Made by a program: the position numbers and the translations under genes. This document shows positions 12,931 to 18,061 of a DNA stretch of 61,377 nt, piece after piece. The notes under the pieces are model-generated. The model saw only the letters and a list, made by a program, of their open reading frames with translations, was not told where the DNA came from and did not search any database. Each line of letters opens with the position of its first letter. Positions within the stretch are counted from its first letter, which is position 1. The DNA comes from Acidobacteriota bacterium (GTDB taxonomy: Bacteria; Acidobacteriota; Terriglobia; UBA7540): positions 1 to 61,377 of the forward strand of contig CADDZE010000022.1 in the NCBI GenBank assembly GCA_902812465.1, read 5' to 3'.

Positions 12931-13203
12931 TCAGCTTCCTGGGCAGGGTCTGCCCACCACAAGGTTCTCTCCTGTCGTGACGCGGCCATCCGTCGTCTTC
13001 CAAACACCCCCAGCCACTGCCCCGAAGTAGTATGTATTGGGCTGCCCCGGCACGCCTGCCACGGCCTCCGTTCGTCCGCCACGGAAGGGACCGATCAAAC
13101 GCCATCGGAGGCCGCTGAAAAGGCTGGGATCGACTTGGGCCCGCGCACCCGCCATCATTGTGGCCGTAACTGCGAAAGCAGTGAGAACGCGTAGCCAAGG
13201 CAC
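12931..13203 (-). pseudogene. N-terminal stub of a VPS10/BNR-repeat (sortilin-like) protein
   Basis: From a GTG at 13203 the frame gives a signal peptide (LRVLTAFAVTATMMAGARAQ), then LFSGLRWRLIGPFRGGRTEA, VAGVPGQPNTYYFGAVAGGV and WKTTDGR, the start of large exported Asp-box/VPS10 beta-propellers that are normally about 1,000 aa. After WKTTDGR the similarity ends and the frame stops within 20 residues. Only about 75 codons of the gene survive, so it is a deletion remnant. Confidence 0.7.
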
Positions 13204-13339
13204 GCCTTTTATACCGAGGAATCCCGGAGATGGCCCCGCGCGCCGCGCCTTCGCTTCGTTGCACCTGCTGAAGCATTTCTGATGGAATCCGAACGCGCAA
13301 GTGTACATCTAGCCAGGCCACCCGAGGCAAGAATTTTGT

Positions 13340-13540
13340 CTAAGTGCGGCTGGCGGGAGTGTGCTCCGAGGGCTGTTGGCTGGCAGCTGCAGTGTTCGCT
13401 CGAATCGCCGGTGCGGACTGCTCAAGAGGATAGCCAAGAGCGCGCCACGCTTCAAATCCACCTTGCAGAGGGCGCACACGAGAAATGCCTCTTCTTCGCA
13501 AGAGGAGCGCCACCCGGGCGCTGGTAGCTTCGTTGGGTCA
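13340..13540 (-). other. In-frame continuation of the rhodanese domain after TGA
   Basis: Directly after the TGA the same frame reads PNEATSARVALLLRRRGISR, VRPLQGGFEAWRALGYPLEQ, then a tail to TAG at 13342-13340. This is the exact C-terminal half of a rhodanese domain, undamaged. On the transcript, nucleotides 19-35 counted from the U of the UGA form a hairpin, AGCGCC-CGGGU-GGCGCU (13522-13506), with a G-rich apical loop 24 nt from the UGA, in the distance range of bacterial SECIS elements. GC-rich coding DNA makes such hairpins common, so this is suggestive only. Confidence 0.6.
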
Positions 13541-14344
13541 AGTGCAGTAAAGCACCACTTCGCGGTCCCGCGGGATCTCCTCGTGCCGTTGCTCAAGCTC
13601 CTCCGGGAGTAAATGCAAAGCGCCGGGCACCTTCACATTCTCGGCCTCGAACTCGTTTGAGTGGCGCAGGTCCACAACGACGACAGGCTCGCCCGCATCC
13701 AGCCGTTGCTTAAGCTCCTCAGGAGTGATTCGCGCGATCCGCAGTGATCGAATGAATCGCCGCCTCTCGACGTACTTCCAAGTGAGGTAAGCTGTGAAGG
13801 CGGCAGCCACCAAAAGGGCGACGCCCCTGCCGAGGTGGATCGCGTAGAGGGCGACGCGGTCGAGCTGACGACTAAAGATGTAACCCACACCGCTGTAGGT
13901 GCCCACCCAAAGTGCAGCTCCGGCCGCGTCCCAGGCGACGAAGCGCCCCAAGCGCATTCCCAGCATACCCGCCAAAGGTGGGGCGGCCGTGCCTAGACCC
14001 GGAAGAAATTTCGCCAACAGCAGTGCGCGACCTCCTTGGCTCGCGAAGGCGTTCTCGGTGCGGCGGACGCATGAGTCCGGCTCCAGTGAAATGCTGCATA
14101 AAAACTTGAGAATGCTGTGGCCTCGCTCCCGCCCGAGTTGATACCACATCAAGTCTGCAAGGAGAGAAGCTAGAACGGCCAGGGTGAAAGCCAGCCAGAA
14201 CGACACTTCTTTTGCGCCGGCCAAAGCACCCAGAGCGAGCAGGATGGGAAGAGAAGGAATGGGCAAGCCGATTTGTTCTGCCAGCACCCAACCGAAGAGC
14301 AGGGCGTAGCCATGATCGCGGAGAAATTCAAAGGCTTCATTCAT
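13538..14344 (-). CDS. DedA/SNARE-associated membrane protein fused to a rhodanese domain (ends at an in-frame TGA)
   Basis: The ATG at 14344 opens MNEAFEFLRDHGYALLFGWV; the frame also opens at 14401. Residues about 1-190 are a DedA domain: EQIGLPIPSLPILLALGALA, LADLMWYQLGRERG, KFLPGLGTAAPPLAGMLGM and several membrane helices. DedA proteins act as undecaprenyl-phosphate or phospholipid flippase-like transporters. A final helix leads into a rhodanese domain (ITPEELKQRLDAGEPVVVVD, LRHSNEFEAENVKVPGALHL, DREVVLYCT) that stops at TGA (13540-13538) in the middle of the active-site loop. Homologues have Cys there (YCTCPNEA). Coding continues in the same frame for 66 more codons (see 13340-13540). 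It is either a nonsense-truncated gene or a selenocysteine or readthrough gene. Confidence 0.8.
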   Translation of the reverse strand: MNEAFEFLRDHGYALLFGWVLAEQIGLPIPSLPILLALGALAGAKEVSFWLAFTLAVLASLLADLMWYQLGRERGHSILKFLCSISLEPDSCVRRTENAFASQGGRALLLAKFLPGLGTAAPPLAGMLGMRLGRFVAWDAAGAALWVGTYSGVGYIFSRQLDRVALYAIHLGRGVALLVAAAFTAYLTWKYVERRRFIRSLRIARITPEELKQRLDAGEPVVVVDLRHSNEFEAENVKVPGALHLLPEELEQRHEEIPRDREVVLYCT

Positions 14345-14526
14345 ACGCGCTAGGCGATCACTCCACGGCTCTCGATAGCCATTCTCCAGCTGGGAAAGCA
14401 CGACAAGGAGCTTTCCTGTTCGCTGGCTATGGTGCGTTGTTCATCCCCTTTAGATGGCCGGGTGGTTCTGTTTGTTCGTCGTCGGCCCAGGGCGGGGAGA
14501 CGCCATGGAGGACTCCCGTTGTTGCA

Positions 14527-15636
14527 CTATGACGAAATGGAATGACCGCTCTTCGGGCAAGTGCTCAGCTCGTGCACCGAATCGACAAGCGTTCGGACAT
14601 GGTCTGCTGGCGTGTCCGGCAGAATGCCGTGACCCAGGTTGAAGATATGGCCAGGGCGGCCGCCAGCTTGCTCGAGGATTCTCTGAGTGCGCAGCCGAAT
14701 GTAGGTCGGTGCGGCGTAAAGTACCGCGGGATCCAGGTTGCCCTGCACCGCCACATCCGCACCGAGGCGCGCCCATGCTTCATCCAGTTCGACGCGGTGA
14801 TCCAATCCGATAATTTCTCCACCCGCCTCCCGCATCACTTCGAGCAGTCCGGCTGTACCGGTCCCAAAGTGGATCACCGGCACTCCGGATTGGATCGAGC
14901 GCAGCAGCGACTGCGAATGAGGCAGCACAAATTCGCGATAGTCAGCTGGTCCCAGGCACCCCACCCATGTATCGAAGACTTGAATGGCCTGTACTCCGGC
15001 CGCAATCTGTGCGTTCACGTAACGTGCCAAGTTGCGGCTGAGGTGTTCCATCAAAGTGTGCCAGGCTACGGCTTCACGATGCATAAAGGCCCTAGTGCGC
15101 CGGTAGTCTCGCGACGTGCCCCCTTCGATCAAATAGGACGCCAACGTGAAGGGCGCTGCGGCGAAGCCGATCAGGGGCTTGGAGGGGTCAAGGGCCGTGC
15201 GAGTACGGCGCACGGCTTCGAGAACGTAGGCCAAGGACTCCTCTGGCTCGACTTCACGCAGCCGCCGGACATCGGCTGGGTCACGGAGCGCCGGCGTGAC
15301 AACTGGGCCATCAGCGCGGCTGTACTCCAATTCCCAGCCCAGAGGCTCGACAATGAGCAGCAGGTCAGCGAAAAGAATCGCCGCATCCACGCCAAGCTGC
15401 TCCGTGGCTTTTACGGCGATTTCGGCCGCTAGGTCGGGATTCTTGCAGAGCTGAAGAAAAGGGACACGATCGCGAAGTTCACGATACTCCTTCATGTAGC
15501 GCCCCGCTTGTCTCATCAGCCACACGGGGGTGACTTCCGTCGGCTCGCCGCGGCAAGCTTTCATGAAGGGCGAGTTCCACCAGGGTGGAACGGGAGCCGC
15601 CGGACCGTGTGATGCGACAGGCTGGGGATGTTTCAT
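14527..15636 (-). CDS. hemE: Uroporphyrinogen III decarboxylase
   Basis: A 369-aa enzyme of usual HemE length (about 350) with all signatures: PVWLMRQAGRYMKEYRELR (substrate-binding Arg and the family signature), AAILFADLLLIVEPLGWELE, GFAAAPFTLASYLIEGG, AIQVFDTWVGCLGPADY and FNLGHGILPDTP. HemE converts uroporphyrinogen III to coproporphyrinogen III in the cytosol. Its ATG overlaps the end of hemG by 4 nt (15633-15636), so translation is coupled. It is the last gene of a hemH-hemG-hemE operon. Confidence 0.97.
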   Translation of the reverse strand: MKHPQPVASHGPAAPVPPWWNSPFMKACRGEPTEVTPVWLMRQAGRYMKEYRELRDRVPFLQLCKNPDLAAEIAVKATEQLGVDAAILFADLLLIVEPLGWELEYSRADGPVVTPALRDPADVRRLREVEPEESLAYVLEAVRRTRTALDPSKPLIGFAAAPFTLASYLIEGGTSRDYRRTRAFMHREAVAWHTLMEHLSRNLARYVNAQIAAGVQAIQVFDTWVGCLGPADYREFVLPHSQSLLRSIQSGVPVIHFGTGTAGLLEVMREAGGEIIGLDHRVELDEAWARLGADVAVQGNLDPAVLYAAPTYIRLRTQRILEQAGGRPGHIFNLGHGILPDTPADHVRTLVDSVHELSTCPKSGHSISS

Positions 15637-17099
15637 AGCTGATTTAGGTGAGCAGCACTTCGGCCGCTGGCAGCTGAGGTTACAAATCGAAGAGCGCCCT
15701 CAGCGGCTCCGTTAGCCGACCGGATGCAGTCGGAGATGCCCACACCGTAGTAGGCATTGCCCGCCAGGAAAAGGCCTGGATGGTCCTCCAGCCTGCGCTC
15801 GACCTCGGCGACCCGTTTCGCGTGCCCGAGGGTATACTGCGGCATCGAGCTAGGCCAGCGATATACAAGCCCAAGAAGCGGTTCCACGGTCAGGCTCAAA
15901 ATTTCCGCAAGTTCTTGCCGGACCATGGCGATCAGGCTGGCATCATCGAGAGCGAGGGCACCTGGGTCGCGGACTCCGCCCAAGAAACAGCGCAGCAGCG
16001 CACACCCGGGCGGCGTACGATAGGCGAACTTCTGATGCACGAACGTGCACGCCAGCAGCCGGTGCCTTTCCTTGCATGGCACCAGCAGCCCGAAGCCGCG
16101 AGGAATACAAACAGGTGCCGAGTAAGCCAGAGAGACGGTTGCCGCCGAGCTGTAGGGAATCTCTGACAGAAGACGCGCGAGCTGCCCATCGGTTGAGTTC
16201 AAGAGGTGAGCGCAGCTATACGCCGGTAACGCCAGAATGACGGCCGCCGCCTCGAGAAATGCGCCGGCTTCGAATCGAACGGCGTAACCGTTGGCACCCG
16301 CCCTGGTTTCGATGGCGACTACGCGGCGGTTTCGACAGATGCGCTGCGGCTCCAGCCGCTTCTCCAAAGCGTTCACAAGTTGCTGCACTCCATCCTTCAA
16401 GGTCGTGAAGAGTGCTTGCTGCGGCTTCTCGCCAGCGGCGAGCCCGGTCTTGCCCTTGGCCCAGCGGGCGACACGCACCAGGTTGCGCTGACCGTAGAAT
16501 CGCGGCAGGGTGGAGCGCGCGCTCAGTGCCTCTGAGTCGCCGCCGAAAATGCCGGCCAGCATCGGGTCGGCAGCAGTTCGCAGCATGCCCTTGCCAAAAT
16601 GGCGGCCAACCAACGCCGCGACCGACTCGTCGCCCTCGCCGAGAGGTCTCGAGTCTTCCGGAGGACGGCCCGACCAGGCGCCCATCCACTCCGCCACCAC
16701 TCGTAGCTTGCTCGCGAAAGGAATAAGCCGCGAGCGCAGAACCGGTCCCAGTCGCGTGGGAACAAACAGCACCATCCCTTCAGGCAGTGGTTCCAGCCGC
16801 CCGCGGTGCAGAATATAGGTGCGGCGCTGGGTGTCGTTCGAGGCCAAAAGGGAGTCACCGAGGCCCAGCTCACGGCACAGTGAGACCGCATCCGGCTTCT
16901 CGGTCAGAAAGGAGTCGGGCCCCGCCTCTATCAGAAAGCCTCCCACCCGTTCGCTCAGGATGAGTCCGCCGAGACGAGGGGCAGACTCGATCAAAACCTC
17001 ATCAATCGGCGCACCGGAAAGCCGTGCCTGAGCGAGACGATACGCCGCAGCCAGCCCTGTGATTCCACCTCCAATTACGGCGATGCGGTGTGCGGTCAC
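15633..17099 (-). CDS. hemG: Protoporphyrinogen/coproporphyrinogen III oxidase (HemG/HemY type)
   Basis: A 488-aa FAD enzyme of the amine-oxidase superfamily. The dinucleotide motif IAVIGGGITGLAAAYRL lies at residues 5-21, followed by PRLGGLILSERVGGFLIEAG (second FAD contact). The C-terminal FAD motif reads GLFLAGNAYYGVGISDCIRS. The flavin oxidises protoporphyrinogen IX or coproporphyrinogen III using oxygen. Which substrate is preferred cannot be read here, as no hemQ is nearby. It overlaps hemH upstream and hemE downstream by 4 nt each. Confidence 0.95.
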   Translation of the reverse strand: MTAHRIAVIGGGITGLAAAYRLAQARLSGAPIDEVLIESAPRLGGLILSERVGGFLIEAGPDSFLTEKPDAVSLCRELGLGDSLLASNDTQRRTYILHRGRLEPLPEGMVLFVPTRLGPVLRSRLIPFASKLRVVAEWMGAWSGRPPEDSRPLGEGDESVAALVGRHFGKGMLRTAADPMLAGIFGGDSEALSARSTLPRFYGQRNLVRVARWAKGKTGLAAGEKPQQALFTTLKDGVQQLVNALEKRLEPQRICRNRRVVAIETRAGANGYAVRFEAGAFLEAAAVILALPAYSCAHLLNSTDGQLARLLSEIPYSSAATVSLAYSAPVCIPRGFGLLVPCKERHRLLACTFVHQKFAYRTPPGCALLRCFLGGVRDPGALALDDASLIAMVRQELAEILSLTVEPLLGLVYRWPSSMPQYTLGHAKRVAEVERRLEDHPGLFLAGNAYYGVGISDCIRSANGAAEGALRFVTSAASGRSAAHLNQL

Positions 17100-18061
17100 G
17101 GCTGGCGTCCTAAGACCGAAGCCAGGAAATGCGTCGGGATGCGAGAAAAAGCCAGGGCAGTCAAGGCGTCAATCAGAAGCGGGCTGTTGTTAAGCGACGC
17201 TGTACGCCACACCCGCACTCCCCTCTGCTTTCCGTACTCACGGAGAACTACGTCGATGTCATACAGCACTTCCACGTGGTCGGAAACGAAGCCGACTGGA
17301 GCGATCAGGACGTACTGGTGGCCCGCCCTCGCCAGTTCGTCGATCTGAGACTCAACCGTGGGCCCAATCCAAGGTTCAGCCGTCATCCCCTGGCTCTGGT
17401 AAGCAAGCCGCCACTCGAACAGCTTGGCCCCCAATTTACCCGCAACCAGCGCGGCAGTCTCCCGCACCTGTGCGTCGTAAGGATCCCCGGCGGCGACGGT
17501 CCGTTCGGGGACGCTGTGAGCGGTGAAGATGACGGGCACCGGACCTCCCGCTTCCTTTTGCACCTGAGCCAGTGCCTCTTCCGCCCGCCCGGCCAGCGCG
17601 GCGATGAAGCTTGGCTGATCATGCCAACTATCGACGAATTCCACGTATAGGCCGGGAGCATACCAGGCCACGGCGTCGGCCAGGTGCTGCCGATACAACC
17701 CGACACTAGTGCGGGAATTCTGCGGCGCCAAGCAGATCGCGACCAGGTGGGTCAAGCCCTCATCGCGGATCAGTTCGACAGCCTCCTGGATGAACGGCTT
17801 CCAGTTGCGCATGCCGACATAGACCGGCAACCCAGACGCCTTTTCTAAGGCTTGCGCTTGCTCTCGCGTCAGGCGCAACAGCGGCGAGCCGCCGCCGATC
17901 ATGCGATAGCGGGCGACGATTTCATGGACTACCTCATCTGGCAGCGGACGTCCGCCACGCACGCGCAGGAGAAACTCAGGAATGTCCTCAAGGCGGTCGG
18001 GCGCGCCATGGGCTAGCAGAAGGATGCCCCAGCGGTCACCGTCTTGCATGGATGCTCTCAT
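17096..18061 (-). CDS. hemH: Ferrochelatase
   Basis: A 321-aa ferrochelatase. The metal-inserting His is in VIFTAHSVPERT, and the acidic partner in GFVSDHVEVLYDID. Further family landmarks are LLLAHGAPDRLEDIPEFL at the N-terminus, RYRMIGGGSPL, VYVGMRNWKPFIQEAV and WRLAYQSQG. It inserts Fe(II) into the porphyrin, the last or penultimate step of heme synthesis. First gene of the hemHGE operon; the stop overlaps hemG by 4 nt. A TATAGT -10-like box sits 20 nt upstream, on the minus strand. Confidence 0.96.
   Translation of the reverse strand: MRASMQDGDRWGILLLAHGAPDRLEDIPEFLLRVRGGRPLPDEVVHEIVARYRMIGGGSPLLRLTREQAQALEKASGLPVYVGMRNWKPFIQEAVELIRDEGLTHLVAICLAPQNSRTSVGLYRQHLADAVAWYAPGLYVEFVDSWHDQPSFIAALAGRAEEALAQVQKEAGGPVPVIFTAHSVPERTVAAGDPYDAQVRETAALVAGKLGAKLFEWRLAYQSQGMTAEPWIGPTVESQIDELARAGHQYVLIAPVGFVSDHVEVLYDIDVVLREYGKQRGVRVWRTASLNNSPLLIDALTALAFSRIPTHFLASVLGRQP

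Follow-up and report, generated by a model that had tools for sequence, protein, structure and literature searches.

A DedA-rhodanese fusion gene of Acidobacteriota with an in-frame TGA very probably encodes a selenoprotein

We analysed a 61,377-nt stretch of DNA from an Acidobacteriota bacterium (hereafter the window; contig C22 of a 3.9 Mb, 190-contig draft genome, completeness 98.6% and contamination 4.2%) and found that the in-frame TGA of a gene joining a DedA (VTT) membrane domain to a rhodanese domain is very probably a selenocysteine (Sec) codon directed by a SECIS element, a reading to which we assign a probability of about 96%. Sec decoding through a SECIS is argued here from comparative genomics, i.e., from the codons found at this site in related genomes, the hairpin that follows it, and the Sec machinery of the genome. 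A preliminary description made from the window had already proposed Sec, and on each computable point that it had named as able to refute Sec, namely absence of Sec machinery from the genome and decayed downstream frames in close relatives, the outcome favoured Sec.

The gene lies on the minus strand (Table 1), and its frame stays open past the TGA as far as a TAG at 13342..13340, with the sequence around the site reading REVVLYCT-TGA-PNEATSARVALLLRRRGISRVRPLQGGFEAWR. The frame beyond the TGA had been described as undamaged, which agrees with this reading to the TAG and with the relatives, among which no decayed downstream frame was seen. Regarding the start, an in-frame GTG at 14401 is a possible alternative and would give a longer frame of 353 aa, but most homologues align with that frame only from residue 19-20; we therefore prefer ATG 14344 as the likely start, and residue numbers below are counted from it.

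Table 1 Features of the DedA-rhodanese gene in the window
Feature	Position	Strand	Details
DedA (VTT)-rhodanese gene, predicted selenoprotein	13340..14344	-	334 codons + stop TAG; from TGA-readthrough translation, Pfam, and homologue alignment starts
UGA codon, very probably read as selenocysteine	13538..13540	-	residue 269 from ATG 14344; motif LYC-T-U-PNEATSAR
DedA (VTT) membrane domain	13880..14260	-	PF09335, about 58.5-60 bits
Rhodanese domain	13418..13744	-	~residues 201-309; Pfam PF00581 57.1 bits; NF041203 93.1 bits
TGC codon, Cys267	13544..13546	-	invariant in alignment A1 (57 sequences)
Conserved Cys pair C83 and C92 (CxxSLEPDxC), DedA domain	14069..14098	-	C83 57/57, C92 56/57 in A1
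Predicted bacterial SECIS hairpin	13506..13522	-	stem AGCGCC / loop CGGGU / stem GGCGCU; nt 16-32 after UGA, loop from nt 22

Both domains are recognizable in the translation, with the VTT match passing the Pfam gathering score (58.5 bits vs 33.9). An AlphaFold model of the protein (mean pLDDT 91.6, pTM 0.73) was compared with solved structures over the rhodanese domain, and residues 199-310 of the model resemble known rhodanese structures (best 3tp9, Z 18.3, rmsd 1.3 over 105 residues), while a phmmer search of the DedA domain alone against the PDB gave no match. Cys267 aligns with the Cys that follows the central strand in 6mxv and 6pfz, a position that we take to be that of the usual catalytic cysteine of rhodaneses, and residue 269 lies two residues after it, so that Sec at the TGA makes a Cys-Thr-Sec active-site loop. 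The CTU beside the rhodanese Cys foreseen in the preliminary description fits this arrangement, with the motif reading LYC-T-U and Cys267 invariant. In the DedA domain, the acidic residues E23 and D64 are conserved, and the C83/C92 pair is present in nearly all homologues of both the Sec and the Cys form of the fusion; the one DedA paralogue examined from the same genome has neither cysteine and carries an Arg pair.

All 200 genomes that we searched contain some match to the DedA-rhodanese protein, and 110 full or nearly full homologues from related genomes were aligned. At the column of the TGA, 68 of these carry TGA, 29 TGC, 12 TGT, and one GGC (i.e., 41 Cys and one Gly), and not one of the 110 carries TAA or TAG. 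The TGA therefore stands where homologues have Cys, as the preliminary description had stated, and the further UGA cases that it had suggested looking for by homologue alignment proved to be the most frequent state of the column. The open frame downstream of the site is intact in all cases, spanning 37-65 codons in Sec genes and 41-80 in the rest. In 25 Sec genes, TGA also serves as the terminal stop, which rules out a reassignment of UGA throughout. In the single homologue with Gly (GGC) in place of Sec or Cys (L118, G098:C1), the second residue of the motif would seem not to be absolutely required, or the function of that copy may have changed.

The state of this column follows the Sec machinery of the host genomes. 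The elongation factor gene selB is present with 63 TGA genes and absent with five, while for the other genes it is present with 21 and absent with 21 (Fisher p = 9e-7, computed over related genomes that are not independent). Among the five TGA genes without selB, two are in genomes with selA and tRNA-Sec (G015 and G003), one is with tRNA-Sec (G028), and one with selA (G190), leaving G025, a 75% complete genome, as the only one lacking selB, selA, and tRNA-Sec alike; missing contigs are the likely explanation of these cases. Conversely, the 21 Cys or Gly homologues in selB-containing genomes indicate that the function does not depend on Sec.

As the preliminary description had pointed out, the window itself holds no selA, selB, or tRNA-Sec, but the machinery is found elsewhere in the genome, where the search for selA, selB, selD, and selC that it had proposed recovered all four. 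The tRNA (73 bits) has the anticodon UCA according to ARAGORN and is called tRNA-Sec by both Rfam and ARAGORN, and selB, selA, and selD score 369.9, 576, and 383 bits, respectively. These genes lie on contigs other than that of the window, some of them short, and the presence of selB in 144 of the 200 genomes of relatives makes a stray contig an unlikely source of them. The selD gene (L020, G000:C42:3121-4047) has an in-frame TGA of its own immediately before AAKLSPS, the usual Sec position in Sec-containing SelD, and the SelD of this genome is probably itself a selenoprotein.

The hairpin downstream of the TGA is placed exactly where the preliminary description had put it, 16-32 nt 3' of the UGA. 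The likeness to a SECIS, there called loose, can be made firmer, as the hairpin fits the published bacterial SECIS model, which asks for a loop of 3-9 nt, a stem of 4-16 bp, an MFE of -7.5 or below, G in the first two loop positions, and 16-37 nt from UGA to loop (PMC13188914). In the window, these values are a 5-nt loop (CGGGU), 6 bp, G in second place, 21 nt, and an MFE of -9.8 kcal/mol. An Rfam scan of 13300-13700 gave no match even at E = 5, which says little against a SECIS given that many bacterial SECIS elements are unlike one another.

Comparison among the homologues ties the hairpin to the TGA. All five pairs of the core are present in 67 of 68 TGA genes vs 5 of 42 others, for which shuffling of synonymous codons would lead one to expect 6% and 4%, respectively, and the hairpin energy relative to such shuffles gives z = -2.7 for the TGA genes and -0.5 for the remainder; core retention and energies together indicate that the hairpin is under selection only in TGA genes. 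Third codon positions are held fixed in the Sec genes, 65 of 68 having GCG for the Ala at position 10, a codon that is divided between GCC and GCG in the Cys genes. Further, the outer pair 15/33, in which both members are synonymous third positions in many sequences, covaries in the Sec genes (34 C-G and 13 G-C vs 8 C-C/G-G mismatches; p = 3e-6, from sequences that are not independent) and shows no covariation in the Cys genes (p = 0.55). Compensatory changes preserve the stem in L124, L126, and L129 (GCACCA/UGGUGC) and in L221 (AGUGCC/GGCACU). One Cys-form gene (L056, G032:C197) has a perfect hairpin and groups with a Sec gene (L061), and selB was not found in its genome, which is 57% complete; this gene has likely gone from Sec to Cys only recently, its SECIS surviving as a fossil.

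In a tree built without the TGA/Cys site, Sec and Cys forms are intermixed, with at least 16 changes, of which 13 are forced by well-supported branches. Other families of Acidobacteriota also have the Sec form, and a single genome from the Nitrospirota sample carries it together with the same hairpin (L215, G220:C16); horizontal transfer is a possible explanation of this last case. The other Nitrospirota-sample members examined are Cys forms. The search of genome contigs with alignment A1 used a Cys pattern and hence recovered Cys forms only. With at least 13 Sec/Cys switches and a SECIS that Sec genes retain and Cys genes have mostly lost, the family offers a natural system for the study of Sec evolution.

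Other readings of the TGA have to be weighed against these data. The preliminary description had regarded a nonsense mutation or sequencing error, i.e., a pseudogene or a miscalled base, as the simpler alternative, and a single genome viewed alone, with a probable gene remnant adjoining at ~12931-13308, would fit that view. It did not survive the comparison, as 68 homologues have TGA at the same codon and none has TAA or TAG, the hairpin and the frame are conserved, and about 16 Sec/Cys changes are scattered over the tree; pseudogene and sequencing error are thus rejected on comparative data, with next to no probability left to them. Hardly more probable is that an opal-reading tRNA, such as a tRNA-Cys of the selC* type working with SelB*, decodes UGA as Cys or as some other amino acid. 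Such tRNAs have been described in some bacteria (PMC7609411), and Cys is indeed the alternative residue at this site, but the tRNA of this genome is called Sec by two programs, and it stands beside selA, which makes Sec, and selD, which makes selenophosphate.

Somewhat less improbable, though still very unlikely, is that the UGA acts as a regulated branch point, such that without selenium translation would end within the rhodanese domain and the truncated DedA protein would be the main functional product. Such a switch would suit the general competition between Sec insertion and termination, as well as the position of the UGA after the whole of the DedA domain, but the protein downstream of the UGA is conserved in Sec genes much as it is in Cys genes.

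Under Sec decoding, SelB would bring the Sec-tRNA to the UGA, guided by the hairpin just downstream, and the ribosome would insert Sec and then continue through the rhodanese domain, giving a membrane-anchored selenoprotein with a Cys-Thr-Sec loop. As to its biochemical role, which we infer from domain identity only, there are perhaps even odds that the Cys-Thr-Sec pair cycles between thiol/selenol and selenenylsulfide or persulfide states, and in this way reduces or transfers sulfane sulfur, or some other oxidised substrate, at the membrane; Sec would then serve as a faster nucleophile than the Cys of lineages that are without Sec or have lost it. The part of the DedA domain in this could be that of an anchor, of a lipid flippase, or of a redox partner through C83 and C92. 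A more speculative and rather unlikely version would have the Sec couple exchange electrons or persulfide sulfur with C83/C92, so that the protein would transport lipids under redox or sulfide gating, or would be a membrane reductase built on DedA; if true, such an exchange would connect the chemistry of selenium with a family of lipid-flipping membrane proteins. The fusion also offers a concrete way of approaching how rhodanese chemistry is linked to the DedA family.

Both CxU rhodaneses and DedA-rhodanese fusions with Cys are already known. Selenoprotein listings include the rhodaneses with CxU as a family ('Rhodanese-like domain-containing protein form 3', NF041203; PMC13188914), and the likeness to this 'rhodanese-related (seleno)protein' model (rhodanese_LYCAU) lies in the rhodanese domain with Sec two residues past the conserved Cys, the CxU/CxC motif being present in the window protein as LYC-T-U. 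The model matches all 57 members of A1 at E <= 1e-10, but it covers the rhodanese domain alone (126 positions), its listing makes no mention of DedA, and the window protein, at 93 bits, falls under the curated cutoff of 115, as does every A1 member, judging from a best A1 E-value of 3e-28. TsoB (NF045694), a rhodanese/DsbD fusion-like selenoprotein, is likewise a rhodanese selenoprotein with a fused domain, but its motif differs (UxxxxU), and the window protein reaches 25.9 bits vs a cutoff of 805.

On the other side, DedA-rhodanese fusions with Cys have been described, e.g., P. aeruginosa PA1209, which shares the N-terminal DedA and the C-terminal PF00581 domain, and the portions of the descriptions available to us do not mention Sec (PMC12893004; PMC10127716). 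The COG0586 DedA undecaprenyl-phosphate flippases need an Arg pair (PMC10127716). These proteins (UptA; E. coli YqjA and YghB) share the VTT fold with the DedA-rhodanese protein, in which E23 and D64 are kept, but it scores far below the cutoffs of the UptA profile. At what we take, by motif, to be the phosphate-binding Arg positions, their RFxPGxR is replaced in the DedA-rhodanese protein by KFxPGx(N/S/G), with the first Arg represented by an invariant Lys112 and the second lost. An incomplete literature search, which leaves an earlier report possible, found none joining DedA, rhodanese, and selenoprotein, and, judged by their titles and abstracts, the papers that contain 'selenoprotein' as well as 'DedA' seem to be unrelated. 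It appears, then, that the Sec form of the fusion is without a prior report that we could find, and that it adds a membrane selenoprotein of new domain architecture, spread across Acidobacteriota and reaching Nitrospirota. Annotation without UGA recoding ends such genes inside the rhodanese active-site loop.

Gene context gave no functional clue, as no conserved neighbour in the gene-neighbourhood comparison involves the window's own locus. Directly upstream of the gene and on the same strand, 14527-18061 (-) holds three frames resembling hemE, protoporphyrinogen oxidase, and ferrochelatase, whose conservation beside DedA-rhodanese homologues elsewhere was not seen. On the other side, the short frame at 12931-13308 (-) is like the beginning of a larger beta-propeller-like secreted protein and is probably a gene remnant.
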